Positions 10,534-20,582 of a DNA stretch of 28,207 nt are shown here, piece after piece. The first letter of the stretch is position 1. Each line of letters begins with the position of its first letter. Below the pieces are notes generated by a model that had not been told where the DNA came from, searched no databases, and worked only from the letters and a program-made list of their open reading frames with translations. The stretch is from a virus. The stretch spans positions 1 through 28,207 of IMG/VR virus record IMGVR_UViG_3300036883_000046; one strand, given 5' to 3'. Both the position numbers and the translations under genes were made by a program.

Positions 10534-10778
10534 TCCGCAATCCTCACTTCACTTCCGTCATCACGCAACGCAACTATCTGCGACGAAGAATCGGTCATTA
10601 CTGTTGAGTGGACCTTGTAGTTGCATCCAGTTTCTTTGTTCTTGCAGACGTACTCCAGATGATCGACAACCTGTTTCTGTCCCCTGCGGCCCATCACTAC
10701 CTTCGGCTTCAAGACGGTTCCGCAACTATGACACACGAGATTGGCCGCGACTAACGGCGAAAGGTCCGGTATTGACAT
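10530..10778 (-). CDS. Small zinc-ribbon protein
   Basis: An 82-residue protein beginning MSIPDLSPLVAANLVC. This ATG is chosen because AGGAG lies 7 nt upstream, while the upstream in-frame ATGs sit on top of that ribosome site. Cys pairs CHSCG (about 16-20) and CKNKETGC (about 45-52) make a plausible zinc ribbon. The C-terminus STVMTDSSSQIVALRDDGSEVRIAE is beta-like. The gene overlaps the 3' end of peptide deformylase by 53 nt in another frame and its TGA overlaps the next ATG. Function unknown. Confidence 0.6.
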   Translation of the reverse strand: MSIPDLSPLVAANLVCHSCGTVLKPKVVMGRRGQKQVVDHLEYVCKNKETGCNYKVHSTVMTDSSSQIVALRDDGSEVRIAE

Positions 10779-11331
10779 GCCCATTCTCCTCATTCCTTCT
10801 TGTTTGTGCTCTGCGCATTGCTTTCCAATTGTGAAATCGTTCCAGAACCTCTTTCCTGCGCCGCTCTGGAACCCTGTCAACGAAAAATGTTCCCGTCAGA
10901 TGATCGAGTTCATGTTGAACGATTCTCGCCACCGATCCCCTAAACGTCAACTTCTTTCGCTCGTATGGAGTTTCTGCTAGAGAAGCCTCAACGTCGACGA
11001 TTTCAAGCCGTGGCACCATGCACTCATTTCCCGAAGGCGGCAAACTTAAACAGCCCTCCGGTTCCTTAATCTCTTTTCCGTACAACCTAGTGATCTCCGG
11101 GTTCACTAAACCAATGACTATTCCGTGACTCCTGCCGATCAATACGAATTGCTTGAAGCATCCTATCTGCGGAGCCGCCAATCCCAATCCATCTGCCTTT
11201 CGCATCACTTCGATCATGTACTCGAATAATTTCGGAATCTCCGGCCACTCAGCCTCTTCGACAGGCTTCGCAAGGATGTTGTTCATCTCTGGCCCATAAA
11301 TAGAGAGCCTAAAATTCCTCTGAAAGTACAT
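10726..11331 (-). CDS. def: Peptide deformylase
   Basis: A 201-residue enzyme with all three signature motifs: GLGLAAPQIG at 48-57, EGCLSLP at 92-98 and QHELDHLTG at 139-147. C94, H140 and H144 should bind the metal and E141 act as catalyst. It removes the formyl group from the N-terminal methionine of new proteins; phage versions are often near-minimal, but this one keeps a C-terminal helix (RRKEVLERFHNWK) and a tail of about 30 residues. ATG 11331 is preferred, with AGGTGA 5 nt upstream; a GTG three codons earlier overlaps the previous stop. It lies in the late operon, which fits a need during virion protein synthesis. Confidence 0.95.
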   Translation of the reverse strand: MYFQRNFRLSIYGPEMNNILAKPVEEAEWPEIPKLFEYMIEVMRKADGLGLAAPQIGCFKQFVLIGRSHGIVIGLVNPEITRLYGKEIKEPEGCLSLPPSGNECMVPRLEIVDVEASLAETPYERKKLTFRGSVARIVQHELDHLTGTFFVDRVPERRRKEVLERFHNWKAMRRAQTRRNEENGHVNTGPFAVSRGQSRVS

Positions 11332-11336
11332 TTCCC

Positions 11337-11804
11337 TCACCTGGGTACAACAATACTCCCAGCAGCCCTCGACCGTTCGGCCTTGAACATGATCTCAATT
11401 GCTTCAGGGATAGCCGAGTTGCCAATCAATTCAAGACGATCTGTGTCCGCCCTCAACCATTGAGGCATATACATCTTATGCGTAGTACACCGCGTCCCCC
11501 TGGCACACTCGCAACCAAGCCAAGTGTCAAGCCGCTCTCGCGCTTTCGCGGTCCAGTCAAAATGTTCGGGGTAGATTTGCGGCAGAAAATAATCGGCGCA
11601 GAAGCATAGACCGTCAGACCTCAACCCAACGGCTCTGCCGGTCACTATCGGTCCAGCGTTGCTCGGAACCAAGACAATCATGTAGCCGACGTTTTTCCAC
11701 GATGACGTGTCGGCTGCGGGTTGACTTTCTGGAACCGCAATTACTTCCGTGGTTGGCGATTCCTGCTTCTCTTTGCGCCGGTCAATTACCTCAAAATTCG
11801 ACAA
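11337..11804 (-). CDS. Unknown protein with Cys cluster
   Basis: A 155-residue protein. Residues 1-37 are polar and probably disordered. A hydrophobic beta stretch follows (NVGYMIVLVPSNAGPIVTG), then GLCFCADYF and CECARGTRC near residue 105, a possible metal or disulfide site. The start is TTG, the only reasonable start in frame, overlapping the upstream gene by 14 nt; a GGGGG run lies about 8-13 nt before it. Family not recognised. The TGA of this gene overlaps the region just before the deformylase start, so expression is probably coupled. Confidence 0.55.
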   Translation of the reverse strand: MSNFEVIDRRKEKQESPTTEVIAVPESQPAADTSSWKNVGYMIVLVPSNAGPIVTGRAVGLRSDGLCFCADYFLPQIYPEHFDWTAKARERLDTWLGCECARGTRCTTHKMYMPQWLRADTDRLELIGNSAIPEAIEIMFKAERSRAAGSIVVPR

Positions 11805-16801: not shown

Positions 16802-16830
16802 ACTATGCCCCCAAACCGCTAAGGCTTCAA
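16802..16830 (-). promoter_or_regulatory. Sigma70-type promoter overlapping the upstream stop codon
   Basis: TTGAAG (16825-16830), 17-bp spacer, CATAGT (16802-16807). The -35 box contains the TGA of the upstream gene. The spacer includes CTTAGCGGTTTGG, nearly identical to the spacer of the promoter at 15543-15571. Confidence 0.65.
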
Positions 16831-17171
16831 GGGGTCACTACAATCCGCCATCTTTGGCACTGCGAATTGAAGCAGGCTACGCCACCAGTTATCGCCTCCA
16901 TTGGACGTAAGCAGGCTCGACAAACACGCCTTGGTTTCTCGATCTCTGCCGGCTTCGGACTCTCGTGATCTATCGGTCTCTCTACCCTCGCCGGCTTCGG
17001 ACCTCGCGCAATAATCATTTTCTCGGCCTTCGGACTCTCGACCTTACCTGAGTTCCAATGGCTTGACCTGCACTTCCGGCTCGGACATCGTGCCGGATCA
17101 CTCGCGCTCTCAGGTATCCAAGTCCACCCGCAAACATCACATTTCCACGCTTCTATCGTCACTCTCGCCAT
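16827..17171 (-). CDS. Double zinc-ribbon protein with repetitive linker
   Basis: A 114-residue protein: CDVC...CPSRKC in the first 35 residues and CRAC...CFNSQC at 83-104. The two metal-binding modules are joined by a Pro/Lys/Glu linker in which a short unit recurs (VESPKAEK, GPKPARVERP, HESPKPAEIEKP). The repeats are visible in the DNA as GCCGGCTTCGGACTCTCG-like copies. Such a layout suits a protein bridging two partners or nucleic acid. ATG lies 2 nt from a palindrome (GGTACA-C-TGTACC), with AGAGG at its far side as ribosome site. Function unknown. Confidence 0.65.
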   Translation of the reverse strand: MARVTIEAWKCDVCGWTWIPESASDPARCPSRKCRSSHWNSGKVESPKAEKMIIARGPKPARVERPIDHESPKPAEIEKPRRVCRACLRPMEAITGGVACFNSQCQRWRIVVTP

Positions 17172-17304
17172 TGGTACAGTGTACCTCTAATCGCATTGGT
17201 ACAGTGTGCCTAAATCTATCCCCTGAATGCAATACACTCACCGTGGTGCCACATTCGAGCGTATTTATAGGGCGCTCCAGTGGGCCGAGGAAAGGCTCAT
17301 CCAT
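17137..17304 (-). CDS. Doubtful 55-residue ORF over the operator region
   Basis: MDEPFLGPLERPINTLECGTT... runs through the tandem palindromes and 35 nt into the next gene. The composition is protein-like, but the ATG has no good ribosome site, and the longer GTG start lies inside a terminator hairpin. It may be a real coupled gene or chance. The rest of the 286-bp gap (17305-17457) holds only the terminator. Confidence 0.25.
   Translation of the reverse strand: MDEPFLGPLERPINTLECGTTVSVLHSGDRFRHTVPMRLEVHCTNGESDDRSVEM
17173..17210. promoter_or_regulatory. Tandem palindromes, candidate operator
   Basis: GGTACA-G-TGTACC (17173-17185) is a perfect 13-bp palindrome and GGTACAGTGTGCC (17198-17210) a near-perfect copy. 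Both are preceded by CATT and lie 25 bp apart. The first begins 2 nt from the start codon of the double zinc-ribbon gene. A repressor dimer pair, or an RNA hairpin masking the ribosome site, are both possible. Confidence 0.5.
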
Positions 17305-17399
17305 CGCGGTCTTTTCGGCTGGCTGTGGTTGTGGTTTGTCTGTGTCGGTGTAATTGGTGAGGGCGTCTGCAAGCGTTAATGATTTTGGTGTGGGATGGG

Positions 17400-17437
17400 C
17401 AAGAGAAAGCCCGCGCACTTGGGAAGGTGAACGGGCT
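17400..17437 (-). terminator. Terminator-like hairpin after the 72-residue gene
   Basis: AGCCCG and CGGGCT (17408-17413 / 17432-17437) enclose an 18-nt loop and are followed in the transcribed sense by TTCTCTTG. It lies 21 nt after the stop at 17458. Moderate quality because the loop is long. Confidence 0.55.
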
Positions 17438-17457
17438 AAAGTAGTTAATGTTGTGTT

Positions 17458-17676
17458 TTAACTGGCTTCGGTCTCGCAGATTCCGGTCAGGATGTACTTG
17501 TCTGTCCAGTCGATGCCGCAAGCATTGCAGTGCATATCCTGAAGCGCCAACCCATCGTTAATGGAAATGTCTCCACCTTGCAGGTCGCCGCTTTCGCATT
17601 GCGGGCAAACTACGCCAAGGCTTGAGACGTACTCCTCTTCTTGGTGTTTGGTGATTGCTGCCTTCACTTGCTCCAT
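17458..17676 (-). CDS. Zinc-ribbon protein, 72 residues
   Basis: A helical start, MEQVKAAITKHQEEEYV, leads to CPQCESGDLQGGD and later CNACGIDWTDKYILTG, two CxxC knuckles 24 residues apart that form a classic zinc ribbon. The string CxxCGxxWTDxYxLTG recurs in small phage proteins of unknown function. GAGGATTC precedes ATG at about 7 nt. Possible transcription or translation modulator; not demonstrated. Confidence 0.7.
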   Translation of the reverse strand: MEQVKAAITKHQEEEYVSSLGVVCPQCESGDLQGGDISINDGLALQDMHCNACGIDWTDKYILTGICETEAS

Positions 17677-17725
17677 TTAGAATCCTCGCTTTCACTTTGG
17701 TTGTCTTCTCTGCGGTTTTGAATCA

Positions 17726-17896
17726 CTATTCGTAGTGTTTCCGCTCACAGTCCGCACAGAGAACCCATTCCCCAACGATCCCCAATTTCTCTGTGGTTCC
17801 GCAACAGTCACACCGGCTGTCGTCGTAAATCTCCGCCTTCGGTCTCCTGTTGGCGTCTATGCCCGGCTCCCGATACGGACTGTCGTCTCTTAGCAT
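17726..17896 (-). CDS. Small zinc-knuckle protein, 56 residues
   Basis: MLRDDSPYREPGIDANRRPKAEI is followed by CDCCGTTEKLGIVGEWVLCADCERKHYE. The start is fixed by GGAGGG 6 nt before ATG. Two CxxC knuckles in the last 30 residues form a compact zinc finger. The leader contains AAAACCGCA just before the ribosome site, a motif shared with several neighbours. The function is unknown. Confidence 0.65.
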   Translation of the reverse strand: MLRDDSPYREPGIDANRRPKAEIYDDSRCDCCGTTEKLGIVGEWVLCADCERKHYE

Positions 17897-17938
17897 CCCT
17901 ATTCCCTCCATTGCGGTTTTAGGCCGTCGCCGGCCGGT

Positions 17939-18172
17939 TCAAAACAAACTCATCTGCCGCTCAGGTTCCGGCGCCCACTCTTGCACTTCCGGCTCCGCTT
18001 CCATGCGGCTTGCCACTACTGAGACTGTACCTTGCAATGCAGGCTGGTGGTAGGGGTCGGTTATGTCCCTGCCGCAGATCCCGCACTGGTACGGCTTCTT
18101 GCGGCTTTTATCCACGAAAGCATGGAAAGCCTCATCTGCCGTTGCCCAGCCGAACCTTGCTCGGTTTCTCAT
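17939..18172 (-). CDS. Zinc-finger-like protein ending in a sliding-clamp-type motif
   Basis: A 77-residue protein with N-terminal basic residues, CGICGRDI near residue 30, and an acidic Pro/Glu-rich linker. The last five residues are QMSLF. This matches the bacterial beta-clamp binding pentapeptide (QxxLF type, consensus QLSLF), and a free C-terminal end is a usual place for it. The protein may bind the host or phage sliding clamp; that is inference. GAGGG lies 4 nt before ATG, 10 bp from the palindrome at 18183-18199. Confidence 0.6.
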   Translation of the reverse strand: MRNRARFGWATADEAFHAFVDKSRKKPYQCGICGRDITDPYHQPALQGTVSVVASRMEAEPEVQEWAPEPERQMSLF

Positions 18173-18182
18173 CGCACCCTCG

Positions 18183-18199
18183 ATTCCAAATTTTGGAAT
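18183..18199. repeat. ATTCCAAA-T-TTTGGAAT palindrome (best copy)
   Basis: A perfect 17-bp palindrome, the longest of the family, in the 30-bp gap between the genes at 18203 and 18172. It ends 10 bp before the start codon of the QMSLF protein gene. Confidence 0.75.
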
Positions 18200-18202
18200 T
18201 TC

Positions 18203-18409
18203 TCAGCCCTGGTAGTTCATCACAGCTATGTCGAAGTCTTCCGCTCGCATGTCCCGCTCGTGCTGCTTCCCGCAGCCGTCGCCGGCACACATCACTTTCT
18301 TGGTTGCAGGGAAATACAAGGCATCCTCGCCTTTCTTGATGCCAAAGCCACAGCGGGAGCACTTCCCGCCAAACTTCGTTTTGATCCAATACGGGGTTGT
18401 GTTTTTCAT
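18203..18409 (-). CDS. Zinc-ribbon protein, 68 residues
   Basis: MKNTTPYWIKTKFGGKCSRCGFGIKKGEDALYFPATKKVMCAGDGCGKQHERDM: a knuckle CxxC and a second CxxxxC/H pair make a PARP-finger-like zinc site. Start chosen by GGAGG 9 nt upstream, with AAAACCGCA between them. It lies after a terminator, so it begins a new unit. The function is unknown; nucleic-acid contact is plausible. Confidence 0.65.
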   Translation of the reverse strand: MKNTTPYWIKTKFGGKCSRCGFGIKKGEDALYFPATKKVMCAGDGCGKQHERDMRAEDFDIAVMNYQG

Positions 18410-18450
18410 TGCGGTTTTCCTCCATGCTTCGATTGTTGCACTACTCCACA

Positions 18451-18482
18451 AATAGACAAGCCCCCACCCAAAGGCAGGGGCT
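18451..18482 (-). terminator. Intrinsic terminator
   Basis: AGCCCC/GGGGCT stem (18459-18464 / 18477-18482) with an internal GC-rich loop, followed in the transcribed sense by TGTCTATTTG. It lies 16 nt after the stop of the 269-residue gene. Confidence 0.7.
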
Positions 18483-18497
18483 CATCCTTGCACTTCA

Positions 18498-19307
18498 TTA
18501 CGCTGCGGCCGTCTCGCTCTGCGCCTCGGCCGTCTCATTGTGGGCTGCTGCTTGGATCTCGCGCTCTGCTCTCCGATGTAGCTCCTCCCTGTAGCAATCG
18601 ACGTATTGCGTCGCCCGGCGCCGGTTACTGTGCAGGTCTACTGCGGCTTGGCAGGCTTCGAACGCATCGCGGAAATCCCTCGCAAGTTGGTACTGGTCGG
18701 CTTGCGATCCGCGTATGCTCTTCGCGCTCTCAAACCATTTCAAGTGAACGGCTGGCATCTCCATGTAGCTCTTTTTGAGGTTGTCCGCTGCCCAAGTCCG
18801 AACGGAGTCGGCATACTGCCAGCGTTCAAGGCCGTCCATGTGCTCATTCATCACCAGTCCGAGAATAGAATCCGCAGTCCCGGTCTGGTACTCGTTCAAT
18901 TCCTTGTACCGGGTGTCGTATTGCAGTTTCGGGTTCCGCGAGACTTTTAGCTCGCTCATGCTGTAATACCGTTTCTTGTTCCAGTCCTTGTCTTTCTCTG
19001 GATCGAAGACAAGCGATGCGGCAAACCTGAGTGAGTCCATCCGTGGTTGCGCGTGGAACATGTGGCTGTAGTTACTGGCGATCTCCTCGTCTTCCAAGAG
19101 AATGACGGCCAAGGAAAACAGGTAGTCGATTGCATACTCCTCAGTCACGGGCCAATCGTGGCTGTGCTGAGTCATGCCGTCACCCATCGTTTCGAACATG
19201 CGGAATTTTTGGGTGAGAAAAGGGTTAGCGCGATACTCCCACTTGTCGCTGTCGAAGGAGTAACCAAACTTGGCTGAATTTGCGATTGAAGCGAATTTCT
19301 TGTACAT
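18498..19307 (-). CDS. 269-residue soluble protein, unknown
   Basis: Mostly helical, rich in Asp, Glu, Arg, Tyr and Trp. It begins MYKKFASIANSAKFGYSFDSDKWEYRA. The middle reads EYAIDYLFSLAVILLEDEEIASNYSH and the C-terminus is a long basic/acidic helix (RATQYVDCYREELHRRAEREI) ending in an Ala/Glu-rich tail. No enzyme motif could be read. GGAGGG lies 6 nt before ATG, preceded by an ATCGGC-AAA-GCCGAT inverted repeat. Own promoter and terminator. One of the larger accessory proteins. Confidence 0.65.
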   Translation of the reverse strand: MYKKFASIANSAKFGYSFDSDKWEYRANPFLTQKFRMFETMGDGMTQHSHDWPVTEEYAIDYLFSLAVILLEDEEIASNYSHMFHAQPRMDSLRFAASLVFDPEKDKDWNKKRYYSMSELKVSRNPKLQYDTRYKELNEYQTGTADSILGLVMNEHMDGLERWQYADSVRTWAADNLKKSYMEMPAVHLKWFESAKSIRGSQADQYQLARDFRDAFEACQAAVDLHSNRRRATQYVDCYREELHRRAEREIQAAAHNETAEAQSETAAA

Positions 19308-19339
19308 CCCAATCCCTCCATCGGCTTTGCCGATAACTG

Positions 19340-19368
19340 ATAGTCACACTCTTCCCCATAGAGAGCAA
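19340..19368 (-). promoter_or_regulatory. Candidate promoter overlapping a stop-codon hairpin
   Basis: TTGCTC (19363-19368), 17-bp spacer, GACTAT (19340-19345). The -35 box is one arm of a perfect 7-bp hairpin, GAGCAAT/ATTGCTC (19363-19382), that includes the TAG of the upstream gene. Confidence 0.45.
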
Positions 19369-19373
19369 TCCCC

Positions 19374-19856
19374 CTATTGCTCCGCTGCGGCCGGCTCCAT
19401 CCCCGTCAAGGTCTGCGGAACAAAGAGAGACTGTTGCACCGCCAGCTTTCCAGACTTCCGACGTATCGCATCGCGCCACTTCGCGCAAAACTCGCCATCG
19501 GGCTGCGGCGCCATGTCGAGAAATTCCACCGGGCACGTGTCGTCATACGGCCCCATCGCCTCTTCCATGTCCTTGTGGCCCCACCCATAACTGCCGTCTT
19601 TGTCGAGCAAGGAAAGACCGATCCACTTCTCGGTCGTGACCGTGCCATCCGGCTTTGTCGTTGTCGTCTCCCGAACGTACCAGAGAGAATTGCCAACGCA
19701 GCGATACGCCAGCACGATTGATTGCGTCCTGGTTCCGGCTGGCTTGGCCCCGTACCATGACTTCGCGGTTTCCTCGGTTGCGGTTGTGTCCCACGGCTCA
19801 AGAATGTCGTGGATGATTGTTTCCTTTGAAGCTCCACGTCTGAATGTCCACCCCAT
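19374..19856 (-). CDS. 160-residue unknown protein with QQSLF string
   Basis: Begins MGWTFRRGASKETIIHDIL, a start I have seen in small phage and plasmid proteins of unknown function. Beta-rich centre: TQSIVLAYRCVGNSLWYVRETTTT, then EKWIGLSLLDKDGSYGWGHKDMEE, then GEFCAKWRDAIRR. Near the C-terminus KLAVQQSLFVPQ resembles a clamp-binding string, less exact than the QMSLF at the end of the 77-residue protein. Start set by GGAGGG 7-8 nt upstream, beneath a strong promoter. Function unknown. Confidence 0.6.
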   Translation of the reverse strand: MGWTFRRGASKETIIHDILEPWDTTATEETAKSWYGAKPAGTRTQSIVLAYRCVGNSLWYVRETTTTKPDGTVTTEKWIGLSLLDKDGSYGWGHKDMEEAMGPYDDTCPVEFLDMAPQPDGEFCAKWRDAIRRKSGKLAVQQSLFVPQTLTGMEPAAAEQ

Positions 19857-19877
19857 AGTGTTACCCTCCATGTCCCC

Positions 19878-19914
19878 ATAGTAAAAGAAAAGCGGAGCCG
19901 GTCAAGGCCCCGCT
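19878..19914 (-). promoter_or_regulatory. Overlapping terminator and promoter
   Basis: Terminator stem AGCGG-A-GCC / GGC-C-CCGCT (19891-19914) with TTTTCTTTT after it in the transcribed sense. The loop and 3' side carry TTGACC (19900-19905), which with a 16-bp spacer and TACTAT (19878-19883) forms a near-consensus promoter for the gene starting at 19856. The upstream unit ends and the next begins within 40 bp. Confidence 0.7.
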
Positions 19915-19925
19915 CAGGGTTGCAG

Positions 19926-20201
19926 TTACTCAATGCTGGTATCGAAGCCCTCCAGTTCGCTAAGAGCCTCGATGATCTGCCCGGCACCTTCGTGGAACTT
20001 GTCACGGATCGCTTCTAGCTCGTCGGCCTTCTCGGTGTAACGACTGGCCTTGTCAGGGAACTTCTCTTCCATGTTTCCGGCTTTCTCTTGCAGTTCGTCG
20101 ATAGCGGCATCCAGGTCGTCAACCTCTGCTGGGATGTCACCGTAGGTCTTTTGCAACGCCGCTAAGGCGGCTGCGTGCTGTTTATCCAACCACTTAGGCA
20201 T
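19926..20201 (-). CDS. 91-residue coiled-coil protein
   Basis: MPKWLDKQHAAALAALQKTYGDIPAEVDDLDAAIDELQEKAGNMEEKF... is rich in Glu, Asp, Ala and Leu with heptad-like spacing over residues 10-85 and no cysteines. Acidic overall. The start is chosen by GGAGGG 3-4 nt upstream. It probably dimerises; possibly an inhibitor or DNA mimic, but this is speculation. Separated by 11 nt from the tiny basic gene upstream. Confidence 0.6.
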   Translation of the reverse strand: MPKWLDKQHAAALAALQKTYGDIPAEVDDLDAAIDELQEKAGNMEEKFPDKASRYTEKADELEAIRDKFHEGAGQIIEALSELEGFDTSIE

Positions 20202-20212
20202 TTCACCCTCCG

Positions 20213-20326
20213 TCACTTCACTGCGGTTTTGATCCGTCTCTCGGCGGACCTGTTAATCGACTGCTGCCGGCGATCACGCTTGCCGTCAGACTCCTTCCTC
20301 AACTTGAACTTCACTCGGATTTTCAT
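20213..20326 (-). CDS. 37-residue highly basic protein
   Basis: MKIRVKFKLRKESDGKRDRR begins a 37-codon frame with about 16 Lys or Arg, ending in RRIKTAVK and TGA. A strong GGAGGG ribosome site lies 7-8 nt before ATG. It overlaps the 3' end of the 98-residue gene by 41 nt in another frame. Likely binds nucleic acid or an acidic partner; notably, the next gene encodes an acidic coiled-coil protein. Too short for most annotation. Confidence 0.55.
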   Translation of the reverse strand: MKIRVKFKLRKESDGKRDRRQQSINRSAERRIKTAVK

Positions 20327-20582
20327 TCCCCAATCCCTCCGGTTTCTCGATCTGTGGATGCCTTTCCATCTCCAGCGTTCCAGTAGTCAAAAAACGCTGG
20401 AACAACGTCACAGCATGGCCCGATCCGCAAGCATGATGATCGTTCGGACTCGGCACCTTTTGCTTCCCCAATGAACCAACCTTAAACGCCTTACCTTCCA
20501 GCCGTACCCACCACCAGTGATTTACGGACTGCTTCTCGATCCCGCAGATGTCACAGATTATCGGACTTGACTTGATCGACAT
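20286..20582 (-). CDS. 98-residue zinc-finger-like protein
   Basis: The start MSIKSSPIICDICGIEKQSVNHWWWVRLE contains CDIC, and later HHACGSGHAVTLF supplies further Cys and His, so a zinc site is likely. The last third is polar and probably disordered. CxxC...NHWW and HACGxxH strings occur in small phage proteins of unknown role. GGAGG lies about 5 nt before ATG. It follows a terminator and so begins a unit. Confidence 0.6.
   Translation of the reverse strand: MSIKSSPIICDICGIEKQSVNHWWWVRLEGKAFKVGSLGKQKVPSPNDHHACGSGHAVTLFQRFLTTGTLEMERHPQIEKPEGLGNENPSEVQVEEGV

Follow-up and report, generated by a model that had tools for sequence, protein, structure and literature searches.

The question raised by this locus was whether a small phage protein uses its C-terminal end to bind the sliding clamp of its host. 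The window, which is the whole 28,207-nucleotide stretch of viral DNA that was analyzed, encodes a 77-residue protein that the initial annotation had described as zinc-finger-like, with an acidic tail ending in a near match to the clamp-binding consensus QLSLF, and had proposed as a possible clamp hijacker. Our analysis covered the ending itself, its homologues, the related genomes, and similar endings in other phage proteins. The results indicate that the 77-aa protein probably docks on the host β clamp (DnaN) by its C-terminal motif.

The 77-residue protein and its ending

The minus-strand frame from 17939 to 18172 encodes 77 residues, and translation bore out the annotated ending, QMSLF followed directly by a stop codon; the frame read on the plus strand contains a stop. 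The parts of the gene are listed here.

17939 to 18172, minus strand: 77-aa gene with an acidic tail ending in QMSLF; same protein in L001 and L002 (100%), 83% version in L003
18047 to 18085, minus strand: CGICGRDITDPYH, residues 30 to 42, with a single CxxC and a His, a possible metal site judged from sequence; no family above the cut-off
17957 to 18022, minus strand: acidic tail with prolines, residues 51 to 72; net charge −4 (L003 version −5)
17942 to 17956, minus strand: last five codons, CAG ATG AGT TTG TTT (QMSLF); in L003, CAA TTA TCA CTG TTT (QLSLF)

The tail is acidic, as annotated: residues 51–72 include six acidic residues and three prolines and carry the net charge of −4. The head contains one CxxC pair (C30 and C33) and the nearby H42. 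A profile search of the PDB matched eukaryotic zinc fingers (best E 9.8e-5, PRDM9), the matches covering about 20 residues around KKPYQCGICGR, or half of a C2H2 finger. The zinc-finger-like description is only partly right: C2H2 and ribbon zinc fingers have two pairs of metal ligands, and here there is the one CxxC with a single His nearby. No zinc family was listed for the protein in the Pfam search, the sole match being DUF6887 (E 0.1, below the family cut-off); the sole PHROGs match was phrog_4293 (E 0.13), and NCBIfam and PADLOC gave no match at E 0.1. The AlphaFold model was poor (mean pLDDT 52.6 over the whole protein, from a two-row alignment), which is compatible with disorder but is no proof of it.

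For the 56 approximate genes of the window, a C-terminal Q[LM]SLF was expected 3.4e-5 times from composition and was seen once. The looser pattern Q[LIVM]x[LM][FL] was expected 0.005 times at C-termini and 0.77 times anywhere in the same proteins; the only occurrence seen was the ending of the 77-aa protein.

Retention of the ending in an exchanged tail

Scans of viral contigs with the protein as query and with the two-row alignment returned the same three contigs carrying the gene. The known sample is four records with only two distinct versions: the gene in L001 and L002 is identical to that of the window, and the L003 protein is 83% identical and ends in QLSLF, the exact consensus. A profile search of 22 related records, most of the others short fragments, found the gene only in the three contigs already known, scans with the neighbouring genes returned only already known contigs, and a plasmid search with the 77-aa protein gave no match. 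Three matches in phage records (38% over 34 residues, E 0.4–0.8; the one inspected had no CxxC) were rejected. Also rejected was the sole match in a bacterial genome contig, L009 (38% to the head); its frame is antisense to an ORF that, from its sequence, we take to be acyl-CoA-dehydrogenase-like.

Across 9,240 bases that run as far as codon 62 of the 77-aa gene, the window and the L003 contig are 98.2% identical, and beyond the differing segments the match resumes at 99.9% over 3,809 bases. The segment that differs in the window is the following.

17417 to 17985, no strand assigned: exchanged stretch, in place of which the L003 contig has 2.8 kb of different sequence; its boundary on one side falls after codon 62, within the tail of the 77-aa gene

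This 0.57-kb segment and the 2.8-kb segment have only a 43-base piece in common. The replacement, of 0.57 kb with two small Cys-containing genes by 2.8 kb (L005, 9461–12260), has the form of a clean cassette exchange between nearly identical phages. Because the edge falls inside the tail, the end of the tail belongs to the exchanged cassette, and in each of the two cassettes the encoded tail end is acidic and carries Q[M/L]SLF.

The two versions are identical at 49 of residues 1–50, and their differences in residues 51–72 are mostly amino-acid changing. Of the 15 bases in the last five codons, 7 are different, the Ser codon being AGT in the window and TCA in L003; the only change in the protein is M to L. 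The initial annotation had named free variation of the C-terminal residues among homologues as the result that would count against its proposal. In the two distinct versions at hand the tail itself changes freely, but Q[M/L]SLF was kept across both the base changes and the cassette replacement. We counted this retention as a sign of selection on the motif, from two versions between which recombination is probable. When each codon was changed at random by the same number of bases, Q[LIVM]SLF resulted with P = 0.0007 in one direction and 0.0012 in the reverse, and P for any Q[LIVM]x[LM][FL] was 0.009–0.021; these probabilities are only a guide, because the end of the L003 tail was probably acquired by recombination and not by random base changes. 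The two endings may come from one older allele or a shared donor lineage, and they are not strictly independent. Retention of the ending despite replacement of the tail DNA suggests that it gives the phage a hold on the host replication machinery.

A QLSLF tail in a related phage

A scan with the terminase yielded 22 loci, including the 97,230-base contig G013 (terminase 79% identical). Orthologues of 27 of the 56 approximate window genes are present in G013, and all 27 are in the same order. A 204-aa ORF of the window (10726–11340, minus strand) is 78% identical in G013; in its motifs it resembles a peptide deformylase. The 77-aa gene lies in an interval between such shared genes.

17172 to 20285, minus strand: block between two genes with G013 orthologues, flanked by a 114-aa gene (16827–17171) and a 98-aa gene (20286–20582)

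None of the genes inside this block, the 77-aa gene included, has a G013 orthologue at blastp E 1e-5. The block differs between otherwise co-linear genomes and contains several small Cys-containing ORFs (61, 72, 77, and 82 aa); genes for takeover or counter-defence are likely to reside there.

The corresponding block of G013 encodes a 106-aa protein with two Cys pairs and an acidic tail, whose C-terminus is ...EEPEPVEYESPQLSLFGGAFTF. Its QLSLF lies six residues before the end, so that the tail ends QLSLFGGAFTF. Homology with the 77-aa protein was not detectable (E 1.8); a weak match around LCAxCER (E 0.01) was found with the 61-aa gene of the window. The 106-aa protein had no match in INPHARED and no Pfam, PHROGs, NCBIfam, or PADLOC family, and its model was weak (pLDDT 59.6). 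Over 168 approximate G013 genes, Q[LM]SLF within 12 residues of the end was expected 0.0009 times, a limit that was set after the match had been seen. The six-frame list of G013 contains two further QLSLF strings, one within an opposite-strand ORF of 69 codons and one within an ORF of 46 codons; neither ORF belongs to the approximate gene set. Two ORFs elsewhere were taken as chance ORFs: one of 46 codons with QRQSLF three residues from its end, in L052 (one of five distant contigs, L052–L056, found with the 98-aa gene), and one of 56 codons with QSLSLF eight from its end, in G022 (L037).

These results bear on whether the ending is a coincidence of five residues in a low-complexity tail. The gene is known in just two distinct versions, and the looser motif was expected 0.77 times somewhere in the window proteins, both of which would suit a coincidence. 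At C-termini, however, the expectation for Q[LM]SLF was only 3.4e-5, the ending was kept through 7 of 15 base changes and the replacement of the tail, and a related phage has the motif again, on the acidic tail of an unrelated protein encoded in the matching block; we therefore consider coincidence very improbable.

The same comparison bears on the possibility that the C-terminus is read by some other partner, such as a protease or chaperone for which it is a degron, a PDZ-type reader, or a partner contacted in the manner of an SSB tail. Hydrophobic C-terminal ends can act as degrons, and SSB tails are likewise acidic and proline-containing, with a hydrophobic C-terminal tip. The SSB tip is DDxPF, however, which the 77-aa protein does not have, and Gln at −5 and Ser at −3 were kept although both codons had changed, which would be needless for a purely hydrophobic tip. 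The G013 motif, six residues from the end, would be unacceptable to a reader of the terminal carboxyl. Another partner is accordingly quite unlikely in our estimate. Docking on the clamp is the best reading because the ending is retained while the tail changes and because an unrelated acidic tail in the G013 block carries QLSLF; the six residues past QLSLF and the different head of the G013 protein count against it.

Comparison with known clamp ligands

A 2024 review gives the β-clamp motif rule as Q-aliphatic-x-[L/M]-[F/L], with QLxLF and QLxLxF as the strongest classes, and notes that clamp ligands typically have acidic flanks or the free carboxyl of a C-terminal motif (PMC11139829). QMSLF at the very C-terminus and QLSLF of L003 both conform to this rule, Met being aliphatic only loosely, and QLSLF of G013 falls in the strongest class, QLxLF. 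The acidic flank (net charges of −4 and −5) and the C-terminal carboxyl are present in both versions of the 77-aa protein.

The initial annotation had also pointed to a weaker QQSLF string in a 160-residue protein of the same block.

19374 to 19871, minus strand: 165-aa ORF (160 aa from the second ATG) with internal QQSLF; no support as a clamp motif

This string is internal, and its position 2 is not aliphatic. There is no conservation evidence for it, since the two further contigs that encode the protein show no difference in the matched residues. The hijacker proposal is partly supported: this part of it has no support, and the part concerning the 77-aa protein gained from the retention of its motif and from the second QLSLF tail in the related genome. 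A QGSLF string inside the portal protein was also set aside as a clamp motif.

Among host proteins, Pol II, Pol IV, Hda, and others share Q-hydrophobic-x-L-F with the 77-aa protein, and in Pol II and Pol IV the motif is in a C-terminal tail with an acidic or carboxylate flank (PMC11139829). These are host polymerases and regulators, however, whereas the 77-aa protein is encoded by a phage and matches no family above the cut-off. T4 gp33 and gp55, the late-transcription co-activator and sigma-like factor, are phage proteins that carry a clamp-binding motif via a linker (PMC7892883). They bind the phage's own clamp, gp45, but no clamp gene (PF00712, DnaN family) was found in any of the six records searched here, which are partial contigs. 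Insertion-sequence transposases that bind β belong to mobile elements, and their C-terminal Q-L-x-L-F is considered to be of many independent origins (PMC4549789); they have a known enzymatic domain, and none was detected in the 77-aa protein. Twort gp168 and SocB are non-polymerase proteins that act on the clamp, as proposed for the 77-aa protein (PMC11139829, PMC9690074). Twort gp168, however, binds the DNA channel and blocks clamp loading, and does not use the pocket (PMC11139829). SocB, a Caulobacter toxin that blocks elongation while bound to the clamp through its motif (PMC9690074), is bacterial, unlike the phage 77-aa protein.

Replication context and the possible action of a clamp-bound protein

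As with the clamp gene, searches for a family-B polymerase gave no match, in any of three records; these also are partial contigs, and family B was the only polymerase family searched over whole records. Twenty proteins chosen from the ORF lists were searched against Pfam; those identified were, for G013, RecT and a DnaB helicase, and for G022 an RNase-T-type exonuclease, a polynucleotide kinase/phosphatase domain pair, and an RNA ligase. Because neither a clamp nor a family-B polymerase was found and G013 has DnaB and RecT, the phage probably depends on the polymerase and clamp of the host. Related phages also encode very large proteins, one of 1,895 aa with weak helicase matches (L038:27–5711) and one of 2,917 aa without a Pfam match (L042:94–8844).

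In the mechanism that we infer, the 77-aa protein would be a small accessory phage protein of the host-takeover type. Its acidic tail, predicted to be flexible, would place QMSLF and the free carboxyl in the hydrophobic pocket of the β clamp (DnaN) of the host DNA polymerase III. The clamp would then serve as a tether that keeps the small cysteine-containing head, a putative metal binder, at replicating DNA, where the head would act on replication, recombination, or transcription.

A bound protein might instead act as a blocker. If expressed early and abundantly, it could fill the clamp pockets and stop or redirect host replication and repair, as SocB does (PMC9690074). The motif evidence is the same as for a tether, all known ligands are described as sharing one pocket (PMC11139829), and the block that contains the gene varies from one related genome to another. 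Blocking, however, would harm the phage itself, which seems to rely on the host polymerase. A blocker also needs no conserved head of 50 residues, yet 49 of residues 1–50 are identical between the two versions, in a stretch that lies within 98% identical DNA. As an account of the protein, blocking appears to us rather unlikely; given docking, a tether is somewhat the more likely of the two roles.

QLSLF endings in other viral contigs

A pattern scan of viral contigs for gene-terminal QLSLF, with one codon subset, gave 68 matches (L057–L124). Of these, 25 lie at the end of an open frame no shorter than 100 codons, compared with 4.1% of 7,812 control TGA codons; the enrichment is approximate, the control being random TGA codons and not a scrambled peptide, and near-identical contigs being left unmerged. 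Close copies among the 68 include six methylase, four methylase-helicase, and two polymerase matches. The families among the QLSLF-ended proteins searched were N6/N4 DNA methylases, a methylase with a SNF2-type helicase, an HNH protein, and a DNA polymerase, and two QLSLF-ended proteins were 'late transcriptional activators' of phrog_836. Small QLSLF-ended proteins of 84–105 aa without a PHROGs match were also seen; that of L063 had no match in INPHARED. QLSLF recurs at the ends of genes in viral contigs, which favors the docking reading of the 77-aa protein.

Endings of Mor/C-family activators

A similar ending in the Mor/C family of Mu-like phages was first noticed in the two phrog_836 activators, at L065:4641–5027 and L071:8102–8512. 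For a count, proteins were collected by homology and not by motif, and the motif-selected L065 and L071 were left out. The 26 proteins, from phage records L125–L149, comprise 11 relatives found by homology, Mu Mor and Mu C, and 13 chosen from homology lists, with 14 Pseudomonas records that have the same match as JBD25 counted once. Mu-like copies, other martha-type Vibrio records, several unannotated records, Klebsiella phage KP12, Salmonella records, and 18 further matching records beyond those listed are outside the sample.

Q-x-x-[LM]-[FL] occurs within the last 20 residues in 21 of the 26 proteins, which are related (RcapMu and RcWaterboi are almost the same), so that the 21 are not independent events. 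Shuffling of the last 20 residues gave a mean of 0.49 expected carriers, and the remainder of the 26 proteins contains four motifs in 2,931 residues. Examples are HQPDLF in Mu C, QPSLL at the end of Mu Mor, QLSLF in ThpS-P1, QLPLF in RcapMu, QFDLF in RR1-B, and QMSLL in FP_Mushu. The five-residue form is absent from Arya, QH16, Mae-JY22, JBD25, and Kp4866-3, and JBD25 has QGKLDL, which resembles the six-residue form. In many of the motifs, position 2 is occupied by Pro, Gly, or Arg in place of the canonical aliphatic residue, so the partner might not be the clamp.

Late genes of Mu are expressed once replication has started (PMC4461284), and late transcription of T4 is coupled to the phage's own clamp (PMC7892883). 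No report of clamp binding by Mor or C was found within the limited literature searched, and the word clamp does not occur in PMC4461284. From these endings, it is possible that Mu-type late transcription is coupled to the host clamp.

Significance

Clamp docking by short motifs is already well known. In the literature searched, we found no account of small phage proteins in which an exchangeable head is joined to a clamp-docking tail. Taken together, the results raise the idea that such proteins commonly steer the host β clamp. The 77-aa protein would be a member that acts like gp33 but on the host clamp, its head serving as a transcription or recombination co-factor brought to freshly replicated phage DNA, and the Mor/C activators would be the best-known members of an unrecognised class. 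We offer this joint proposal tentatively and consider it unlikely to hold as a whole. If true, it would open a simple and testable way to study the capture of host replication by phages dependent on the host polymerase, and the Mor/C lead would offer a mechanism by which the late genes of Mu are switched on only after replication has started (timing, PMC4461284).
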